From assembly GCA_004298155.1 (NCBI GenBank), contig SCRD01000019.1, positions 62,001 through 126,000 of the forward strand: a DNA stretch of 64,000 nucleotides. The letters are read 5' to 3'. The notes under the pieces were generated by a model, which was not told where the DNA came from, searched no databases, and saw only the letters and a program-made list of their open reading frames with translations. Of this stretch, positions 13,321 through 62,375 are shown piece after piece. Position 1 is the first letter of the stretch; every line of letters begins with the position of its first letter. Origin of the DNA: Acidobacteriota bacterium (GTDB taxonomy: Bacteria; Acidobacteriota; Terriglobia; UBA7540). Made by a program: the position numbers and the translations under genes.

Positions 13321-13862
13321 CCGGGTTAGCCTGGCGGGGTGTTACGACCGTGCTGCGGCAGGCTGCCTCAGGAATCGCGCCGGACGGCACGGGACGGATT
13401 TCAAAAAGGGGCCTCTCGCTCCGCGAGATCGCAGACACCATAAGGCCAGCGTCTGCGCCAGCCGCGAACATGAAAGAGACCCCTCACCCGCAGTCGTACC
13501 TCCGGCACCCTCTCCCCAGGGGCGAGGGCATTATTTGGGGGGGATGGTTCGGCGTGGGAGGCACGCAGGGCGAGCGGTCTATTTGGAAATGAATTCTTTC
13601 GCCCCTCCGGGGCTAGGCGGTGTTTGGATGGCGCACGCTGTCCCATGGCTCACGCCATGGGCTAAAGTCTTCCGCCCTCTACGAGGGCTGGAATGCCAGA
13701 GCCGCCCTCTACGGGGGGCTGGCCTCCCCAGGCTGGACACATCGCAAACAGCACAACCTGTGCGGCGCCCACGAAACCATGATCAACAGAAAACATGGCG
13801 GGCGGCGGGCTCACGTTGCCTGCTCAGCAAGCCACAAGACAGGCGCACCGAGGAAGCCGCTT
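13175..13862. other. Repeat-rich region downstream of the transposase
   Basis: No gene is supported. It contains the right P-Q-S repeat block up to 13444, then G-rich sequence. A perfect 8-bp hairpin CCCATGGC-TCAC-GCCATGGG lies at 13642-13661, followed by two imperfect copies of CCGCCCTCTACG-x-GGGCTGG around 13673-13720. Open frames here are by-products of GC-rich sequence. Confidence 0.5.
13276..13444 (+). repeat. Q-S repeat unit, right copy
   Basis: Copy of 12023-12191 with the same length of 169 bases. Here Q is shared with the P-Q unit, giving the continuous order P-Q-S, whereas left of the gene the order is Q-S, hairpin element, P-Q. Confidence 0.8.
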
Positions 13863-31826: not shown

Positions 31827-32663
31827 ATGACACTACAACAACAGATCGAAAACCTTTTCGCCAGCCAGTCGGACCGCTACGGGGCAGAATACTTCGCTGC
31901 CTTTGAGGAGTTCAAGAAAGCTTTGAACGAAGGAGAGGCGCGGGCCGCAGAACCGGATGCGAAATCGCCCACGGGGTGGAAGGTGAACGCCTGGGTGAAG
32001 AAAGGCATTCTGCTGGGGTTCCGCATTGGACGCGCGGTGGAGATGCCACCCGCCGGCTTCCAGTTTCGTGACAAGCAGACGTATCCTCTGAAGCAGATTC
32101 CCCCTGGCCAGAATGTCCGCGTGGTCCCGGGCGGCTCCTCCATCCGCGACGGCTGCTACATTGGCAGGAATGTGACCTGCATGCCGCCGATGTACGTGAA
32201 TGCAGGCGTCTACGTGGACGACGGGACGATGATTGATTCCCACGCGCTGGTAGGCTCCTGCGCGCAGATCGGCAAGCGATGCCACTTGTCTGCGGCCGCG
32301 CAAATCGGCGGAGTGCTGGAACCGGTGGGCGCGCTGCCGGTGATCATTGAAGATGACGTTCTGGTGGGAGGCAATTGCGGCGTCTATGAGGGCGCCGTTG
32401 TGGGCAGGGAAGCTGTGCTGGCCGCCGGGACCATCCTGACGGGCTCAACTCCGGTTTATGATCTTGTCCGCGAACAGGTTTATCGCCGTGAAGGCGAACG
32501 CCCGCTGATGATCCCTGCCGGCGCTGTGGTCGTGCCCGGCGCGCGTGCGGTGACTCATGGACGCGGCAAAGAATGGAACCTTTCGCTTTACACACCAGTG
32601 ATCATCAAGTACCGCGACGAAAAAACGGACCAGGCCGTGAGACTTGAAGATCTGCTTCGCTAA
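31827..32663 (+). CDS. dapD: 2,3,4,5-tetrahydropyridine-2,6-dicarboxylate N-succinyltransferase
   Basis: A 278-residue left-handed beta-helix acyltransferase that succinylates tetrahydrodipicolinate, committing lysine and diaminopimelate synthesis to the succinylase branch. Family marks are [32 protein letters not shown] and [14 protein letters not shown] (each a run of hexapeptide-type turns), then [16 protein letters not shown]. The length matches E. coli DapD. Its stop is nine bases before the OsmC-family selenoprotein start, which puts that gene in the same transcript. Confidence 0.96.
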
Positions 32664-32672
32664 GGAAGTTCA

Positions 32673-33149
32673 ATGCCGGAAAACAGCAAAGTAGCCTACA
32701 CTTCGCGAGTAAGGATCGAACGCCTGACCGGACCAATGCGTCTTGCCTATCTGCCTGCCGAAAAAGAGCCCGTACAATTTGGCGTACACTCGGAAGTCGC
32801 CGCGCATTACAAGGTCCCGCCGGGAAAATTCCCCCCATGTGCCACCACGCTGGACTATGTGGTGGCCGCGGCAGGCGGATGACTGACCGGCACTTTTGGT
32901 GGCGCGCTGGAAGCGCGCCAGATTGATGCCAGCAACGGCAAACTGACTTCTGAAGTCACAGGTGAAATTGAAGTAGACGGCGGCGTCCTGGTCATCCGGC
33001 GGATCCACGCTCACTACAAGCTGCGGGCCCCGGAATCGTACCGCGAAACTATCGATCGTGTACACGCCATGCACGCGGACCACTGCCCGGTGGCGCGCTC
33101 GATCAAAGCCGCCATTGATGTCTCCACTTCATACGAGTTGGTTGATTGA
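32673..33149 (+). CDS. OsmC-family protein with in-frame TGA read as selenocysteine
   Basis: A 158-residue OsmC/Ohr-fold peroxide-reducing protein, provided the TGA at 32880-32882 is decoded as selenocysteine (residue 70). The reading frame continues without any shift to a TGA at 33147-33149 and stays protein-like. The TGA stands in DYVVAAAGG-[TGA]-LTGTFGGAL, exactly where OsmC proteins carry the peroxidatic Cys; the second conserved Cys is kept as Cys138 in HADHCPVARS. A strong hairpin follows the TGA (annotated separately). AAGGAAG precedes ATG 32673, nine bases after dapD. Without recoding the product would be a useless 69-residue fragment. A plain nonsense mutation is the alternative, which I consider unlikely. 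Confidence 0.85.
32900..32920 (+). promoter_or_regulatory. Bacterial SECIS-like hairpin of the OsmC gene
   Basis: The stem is TGGCGCGCT / AGCGCGCCA, 9 bp and perfect, with loop GGA. The loop lies 26 bases after the in-frame TGA and begins with G, within the usual rules for bacterial SECIS elements (loop 16-37 bases downstream, G in its first two bases). It would bind SelB inside the coding region. Confidence 0.7.
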
Positions 33150-61031: not shown

Positions 61032-62375
61032 ATGATCGAGATCGATGACACTGCGGTTGTAACCACCGGGAGCAGCGGCTACGGACCGGGTGAGGCCCCG
61101 GAGTGGGATTACTATTCTAAGTGCATCCACTGCGGTCTTTGTCTAAACGCCTGCCCAACTTACCGTGAACTTGGGCTTGAGATGGATTCGCCCCGCGGAC
61201 GAATCTACCAGATTATCCAGGTGGACCGCGGCAGGCTGCCGCTGGGCGAGAGTTTCGTTCGGCACATCGATTCCTGCCTCGACTGTCGCGCGTGCGAAAC
61301 TGCGTGCCCCTCCGGCGTGGAATACGGCCGGCTGGTTGAGGCGGCTCGGTCCCAGATCTGCCAGTACTACCAGCGTCCGGGTATCGGCCGATATATAAGC
61401 CATATTTTCTTTCAGAAACTGCTGCCTGACCGCAGGATGCTCAACCAGGTTGGGACACTGCTTTGGCTTTTCCAGAAATCGGGCCTGGAAGCCATTTTGG
61501 TGAAATCAGGAATCCCCCGGCTCTTATCGAAACGATTGGGCCGTGTAGCTGCATTGTCACCGCAAATGGAGAAGCCTTTCTTTACGAAGCGATTGGGCCA
61601 GGTGGTCAAGCCTGTCGGCGACTTGCGTTACCGCGTGGCTTTTTTTGCCGGATGTATTGCGAACCTGGCCTTTGCCCGGTTGAATGACGCAACCGTCCGG
61701 GTCCTGGCTCGCAACGGATGCGAAGTCGTGATTCCTGAGGCACAGGGATGCTGTGGCGCTTTGCACGTCCATGCGGGCATTCGTGGCAAAGCGCGAGAAC
61801 TTGCAAAGCAAAATATCCGGACGTTCCTTGACGGAGGGTTTGATTATTTCATCACCAATGCTGCCGGTTGCGGTTCTGTGCTGAAGGAGTATCCTTTACT
61901 CTTTGAGCATGAAGAGCATGAGTTTTATGAGCAGGCACAGGAGTTCAGCTCCCGGGTTCGTGACGTGACGGAGTTTCTGGCAGGCATCGAATTCGACCGG
62001 AATTTTGGTGCCATCCGCGCACGGGCCACTTACCAGGACCCCTGCCACTTGGGACATGCACAGCACATCCGGAGCGCCCCTCGAACGCTGATGGCGGCGA
62101 TCCCTGGTCTCGAGCTGGTTGAACTGAAGGAATCCGAAGTTTGCTGTGGGAGCGCAGGCATTTATAATGTGGTCCAGAACGAAATGGCGGACCGGCTACT
62201 TACGGCCAAGATGCAGCGAGTGGACGAGACCGGCGCCGAGCTGGTACTGACTGCCAATCCTGGATGCCTTTTGCAGTTGCGGGCTGGCGTTGCCCGGTCC
62301 AGGCTTAAGCGGCGTGTGCTCCATGTGGTTGAGCTGCTTGATGAAGCTTACCGAAGCCGCGTTCAGGCCGGATGA
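61032..62375 (+). CDS. glcF: Glycolate oxidase iron-sulfur subunit GlcF
   Basis: A 447-residue protein that passes electrons from GlcDE to the membrane quinone pool. Two 4Fe-4S motifs are clear: Cys31, 34, 37 and 41 in CIHCGLCLNACP, and Cys82, 85, 88 and 92 in CLDCRACETACP. Two C-terminal CCG domains follow, seen as EAQGCCGALHVHAG and ESEVCCGSAGIYN, with PCHLGHAQ between. The length is near the family norm. No strong ribosome-binding site precedes ATG 61032. acs follows after 188 bases. Confidence 0.94.
   Translation: MIEIDDTAVVTTGSSGYGPGEAPEWDYYSKCIHCGLCLNACPTYRELGLEMDSPRGRIYQIIQVDRGRLPLGESFVRHIDSCLDCRACETACPSGVEYGRLVEAARSQICQYYQRPGIGRYISHIFFQKLLPDRRMLNQVGTLLWLFQKSGLEAILVKSGIPRLLSKRLGRVAALSPQMEKPFFTKRLGQVVKPVGDLRYRVAFFAGCIANLAFARLNDATVRVLARNGCEVVIPEAQGCCGALHVHAGIRGKARELAKQNIRTFLDGGFDYFITNAAGCGSVLKEYPLLFEHEEHEFYEQAQEFSSRVRDVTEFLAGIEFDRNFGAIRARATYQDPCHLGHAQHIRSAPRTLMAAIPGLELVELKESEVCCGSAGIYNVVQNEMADRLLTAKMQRVDETGAELVLTANPGCLLQLRAGVARSRLKRRVLHVVELLDEAYRSRVQAG

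Follow-up and report, generated by a model that had tools for sequence, protein, structure and literature searches.

The window, a 64,000-nucleotide stretch of the genome of an Acidobacteriota bacterium (positions 62,001 to 126,000 of contig SCRD01000019.1, assembly GCA_004298155.1), carries on its plus strand, at 32673..33149, a gene that very probably encodes a selenoprotein of the OsmC fold with an OsmC-type thiol/selenol redox chemistry. We regard it as nearly certain that residue 70, specified by a TGA codon, is selenocysteine (Sec). All features of the window described below lie on the same strand.

Results

The reading frame comprises 159 codons and is open from its ATG except for two TGAs, the internal one at 32880..32882 and a terminal one at 33147..33149, where the homology ends and which is read as a stop; the product would thus have 158 residues including Sec70. 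The internal TGA in an otherwise uninterrupted frame had been described in an earlier reading made from the sequence only, and our analysis confirms it, the second TGA being the terminal stop. Judging by the sequence, AGGAAG at 32663..32668, 4 nt before the ATG, is the probable ribosome-binding site. Under the standard code a gene caller reports an ORF of 69 amino acids, the fragment that had been predicted. The read-through protein matches the Pfam OsmC model PF02566 with 51.9 bits (cut-off 27.5) over residues 60–152, most of which lie behind the TGA. A search of the solved structures with the single sequence gave no match, and a profile of the family found OsmC of Thermus thermophilus (1UKK). 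In this alignment the TGA column falls on the cysteine of the AGC motif, as expected for the peroxidatic cysteine position, and C138-P139 falls on the CPV of 1UKK. The second cysteine (codon at 33084..33086), the putative resolving one, is indeed kept in the motif HCPVARS, where both C and P are invariant.

Behind the internal TGA lies a hairpin with the 5' arm TGGCGCGCT (32900..32908), the apical loop GGA (32909..32911) and the 3' arm AGCGCGCCA (32912..32920). Coordinates and folding agree with its first description: the stem has 9 bp, 17 nt separate it from the TGA and 26 nt lie between the TGA and the loop. RNA folding of 51 nt gave a minimum free energy of -22.2 kcal/mol (z -3.3), and none of 200 shuffled sequences folded as well. 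The published constraints for bacterial SECIS elements (bSECIS) include a 3-nt loop beginning with G and an energy limit of -7.5 (PMC13188914); with its GGA loop, 9 bp, 26 nt and -22.2 kcal/mol the window hairpin falls within them, so that the SECIS search proposed at the outset had a positive outcome.

The synonymous codon choice in the family keeps the hairpin stem at a fixed place. Of 109 distinct homologues, 100 have the loop GGA and 6 the loop GGC, and in 98 at least 7 contiguous pairs form at the same place, against a mean of 6.5 (SD 2.3, maximum 16) in 300 rounds in which the codons were redrawn synonymously using each gene's own usage. In the 11 genes that have Val81 (GTG) in place of Ala81 (GCG), Ala78 is encoded by GCA 9 times; nearly all the other genes use GCG for Ala78, and the use of GCA elsewhere in the family genes is about 10%. 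The wobble base of Gly76, immediately outside the core stem, is unconstrained. A separate count over 36 sequences found 98.4% of the cells paired and 7 double changes, a value reached in none of 500 shuffles.

The window genome (G000, 97.6% complete) contains selA, selB, selC and selD, and the absence of selB and selC, which would have spoken against a selenoprotein, is not observed. The tRNA-Sec scores 68.4 bits and is also called as tRNA-SeC by ARAGORN, SelA scores 478.7 bits, SelB 368 bits (over the cut-off) and SelD 377 bits, the last from a gene with an in-frame TGA of its own. This selD locus (L021, G000 C17:121050-121973) is broken by the one TGA, in the context GUAAK, and has a hairpin behind it. 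From the signal and the machinery together we infer that Sec is inserted at UGA-70: SelB with Sec-tRNA(Sec) would bind the mRNA hairpin just after this codon and deliver selenocysteine there. The reading of the gene as a functional selenoprotein is supported by the cysteine alignment, the SECIS features and the four sel genes, selenium incorporation and catalysis themselves remaining predictions.

The window gene has two paralogues in G000 (79 and 75% identity); all three are intact and each has one TGA. Within the phylum, a search of 396 Acidobacteriota-type genomes gave 35 matches in 32 genomes, every one with one TGA. selB was found at E <= 1e-60 in 256 of the 396 genomes and in 28 of the 32 carriers; G055 and G277 instead show a strong selA, G080 (75% complete) has only part of selA, at the end of a contig, and in G317 neither selA nor selB was detected. 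When 84,980 species were scanned with X standing for Sec, 208 loci resulted, and the TGA stands at the aligned site in all of the best 80 that were kept. Of 32 genomes that hold loci from other species, 29 have a selB that exceeds the cut-off and another has a long selB fragment; in two the selB search gave only scores such as general elongation factors also reach.

The family is widespread in about ten bacterial phyla. The names recorded are Acidobacteriota, Chloroflexota, Actinomycetota, Gemmatimonadota, Thermodesulfobacteriota, Myxococcota, Nitrospirota, Nitrospinota, Poribacteria, KSB1, Dormibacterota and Thermomicrobiota, of which single assignments may be wrong because most of the records are metagenome bins. 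The recurrence of the TGA, the frame and the hairpin in more than 100 homologues is more than chance would give. A search of a plasmid collection produced only one remote OsmC match.

Sense codons at the Sec site are rare among the loci kept and read, and further Cys forms may occur in the weaker matches of the scan. In a sample of 400 genomes of Chloroflexota, the phylum of a Thermoflexus bin, 28 of the 30 loci read have TGA. One of the other two (L216) has TGG and a broken, frameshifted N-terminus and is likely decayed. The other (L217, in G842) has TGC and is the only Cys homologue found whose frame is intact. Two breaks interrupt its stem, and in the tree it stands among Sec members on a long branch, with a rooting that the very distant outgroup makes uncertain. 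The broken stem and the place among Sec members fit a late change from Sec to Cys. Decayed copies, which the sequence-only reading had named as evidence against itself, exist in two relatives: in G397, of the same genus, an in-frame deletion has removed about residues 17–82 together with the TGA and the hairpin (L185), and in G399, of the same family, the copy is frameshifted (L186). Both genomes have selB, and the gene is therefore dispensable in that lineage, whereas the three paralogues of G000 and more than 100 homologues are intact.

Taking these data together, we lean towards an OsmC family of ancient origin that occurs in about ten phyla and is (nearly) confined to Sec. It would have been missed for two reasons: gene callers cut its members at residue 69, and the usual selenoprotein searches depend on Cys homologues. 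Cys would be a rare late replacement in it, accompanied by the loss of the SECIS stem.

An AlphaFold2 model built from 36 homologues with Cys written for Sec (pLDDT 96.4, pTM 0.89) has OsmC and Ohr as its nearest solved structures (best Foldseek E 1.2e-9; best VIA Z 14.7 over nearly the whole length), at a sequence identity of 10–20%; the top PDB matches place the predicted model within the OsmC fold. Residue 70 lies within the central helix 59–80 and C138 between two C-terminal helices, so that both redox positions of OsmC are present, the first as Sec70 and the second in the invariant C138-P139. The residues invariant in the 36 sequences are R23, H39, Y46, D61, U70, G73, T74, L79, R82, G97, C138 and P139. 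D61 stands nine residues ahead of Sec70, as the catalytic Glu does relative to the Cys of Ohr; R23 is a candidate for the catalytic arginine.

Discussion

The chemistry that we propose follows the Cys-based Ohr/OsmC proteins. Sec70, which lies on the central helix, would attack a hydroperoxide, probably an organic one, the oxidised Sec70 would then form a selenenylsulfide with Cys138, and this bond would be reduced by a dithiol such as dihydrolipoamide. Both the peroxide substrate and the dihydrolipoamide reductant are suggested by family resemblance; solved complexes of Ohr with dihydrolipoamide, its reductant, are among the structure matches. On this analysis it is likely that the window protein reduces peroxide. 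A less probable reading, which we nevertheless take seriously, is that Sec70 is inserted and that its substrate is a disulfide, a sulfenate or a sulfur or selenium species instead of a hydroperoxide. The family resembles Ohr and OsmC only distantly, with 20 bits or less against the respective NCBIfam models, and the genes around the window copy belong to lysine and threonine biosynthesis. A dapD-like gene (tetrahydrodipicolinate N-succinyltransferase, 31827..32663) ends 9 nt before the ATG and is probably co-transcribed with the OsmC-type gene in this genome, and asd, dapB, dapA and a GHMP-kinase gene (homoserine-kinase-like) lie nearby. No neighbourhood, the dapD arrangement included, is conserved across the homologues in a search blind to neighbours split by a TGA. 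The only Rfam match over the cut-off in the window is an Acido-Lenti-1 RNA at 13642-13689 (plus strand, 44.6 bits).

Against a substrate other than peroxide stands the retention of both OsmC redox positions, as Sec and Cys, and the surroundings of the two paralogues also point to peroxide chemistry. Each of them lies about 60–70 nt behind a Prx-like gene with a TGA in the motif RGGWUPHC (L028:853-1428 on contig C8; L027 863-1435, minus strand, on contig C24), and a second Prx-like gene, with a TGA in RGYWUP[HY]C, follows downstream, so that three putative selenoprotein genes stand together. The best NCBIfam match of the directly upstream genes is the SelL-related redox protein, below its cut-off. 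A read-through search found a related Prx-like TGA gene also near L096, L103 and L220, and such genes near only five distinct loci in all. These Prx-like UxxC neighbours support a role of the family in peroxide handling.

It is highly improbable that the TGA is read as some amino acid other than Sec, through a changed code or near-cognate readthrough. The frame would be open under such codes, but TGA terminates 52 of 112 family genes, the window gene included, and is therefore still a stop; since one codon would stand for Sec at position 70 and end translation at 159, it is probably the hairpin that tells the two apart. The SECIS geometry of the hairpin, the complete Sec machinery of the genome and the position of the TGA at a cysteine site, where TGC stands in the only sense homologue whose frame is intact, likewise argue for selenocysteine.

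Decoding of UGA as Sec always competes with termination, and one could imagine the codon as a selenium-dependent switch whose 69-residue N-terminal product is functional when selenium is lacking. We give this idea very little credence. The gene is under purifying selection on both sides of the TGA, to a similar degree: in the paralogues and near homologues dN/dS is 0.07–0.24 behind the TGA and, where dS could be measured, 0.06–0.14 before it. Moreover, the 69-residue part ends within the helix H59-80 of the AlphaFold2 model and is thus unlikely to fold alone as an OsmC protein. Least probable of all is a pseudogene or sequencing error, by which an ordinary Cys-OsmC gene would have acquired a nonsense mutation: TGC and TGT are only one base away from TGA and decayed copies do exist in G397 and G399, but the same TGA recurs in the three paralogues and in more than 100 homologues, the hairpin is kept at synonymous sites, and the low dN/dS behind the TGA excludes a recent nonsense mutation.

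The preferred reading, a selenoprotein family in which Sec70 is the rule, bears on how selenoproteins are found. Most selenoproteins have many Cys homologues, on which the search programs rely, and the authors of deep-Sep noted that a lack of Cys homologues may cause selenoproteins to be filtered out (PMC12013277). A widespread OsmC family with Sec as the rule shows that families of this kind exist and are truncated by standard gene calling. It also contributes a fold of the peroxidase type for which Sec seems almost obligatory, and the reason for keeping Sec can be tested directly, by comparing the Sec form with the Cys form, of which nature provides one example.

OsmC-like selenoproteins with the motif UxxT have been in the literature since 2005 (PMC1088965, PMC2398784, PMC9312934, PMC13188914), the first report coming from the Sargasso Sea (PMC1088965). 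The statement in the sequence-only reading that such proteins were known from metagenomes was thus correct, but they form a different subfamily, NF041052 (NCBIfam OsmC_like_Se, OsmC-related (seleno)protein), which from its UxxT motif we infer to be the Sargasso family. The window protein scores 18.3 bits against this model and the family 17–29 bits, far from the cut-off of 95, and in place of UxxT the window protein has U-L-T-G-T, with G at +3. A true member of NF041052 in G377 (L174) reads FULLTQL. Both belong to the OsmC fold family and have a Sec at the equivalent position with a predicted bSECIS behind it; they differ in the motif, UxxT versus U-[LM]-x-G-T, in the CP motif, absent in L174 and kept in the window family, and in the Cys homologues, of which 10 and 17 are listed for the Sargasso OsmC-like family (PMC1088965) and which are almost absent here. 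We class the window protein as a member of the OsmC superfamily and as a bacterial selenoprotein outside NF041052.

The Cys-based OsmC/Ohr proteins (TIGR03562, TIGR03561; 1UKK, 1NYE, 6EBG) share the fold with the window protein (Z 12–15), and their first Cys aligns with Sec70 and their CPV motif with C138-P139. They differ in having Cys for Sec and in the family-specific invariant residues R23, H39, Y46 and D61 of the N-terminal half; against TIGR03562 the window protein scores 20.1 bits, far below the cut-off of 85.8. Two YhfA-type OsmC genes, L169 (G066 C46:22700-23068, LGTUTSITV) and L170 (G128 C136:24586-24960, LGAUTSMTI), also have a TGA at the first cysteine of the OsmC fold and a stable hairpin behind it. 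They represent a further OsmC selenoprotein subfamily, distinct from the window family by the motif U-T-S-[IM]-T. The Prx-like UxxC selenoproteins (listed in PMC13188914) resemble the window family as selenoproteins of the thiol-peroxidase type and differ from it in their thioredoxin fold and unrelated sequence. No NCBIfam or Pfam model and no paper that we found names the window family, our coverage of the literature being incomplete and an earlier mention possible. Set beside these systems, and going by motif and alignment, it is a separate, nearly Sec-only OsmC subfamily that is marked by U-[LM]-x-G-T and has Sec as its normal state.
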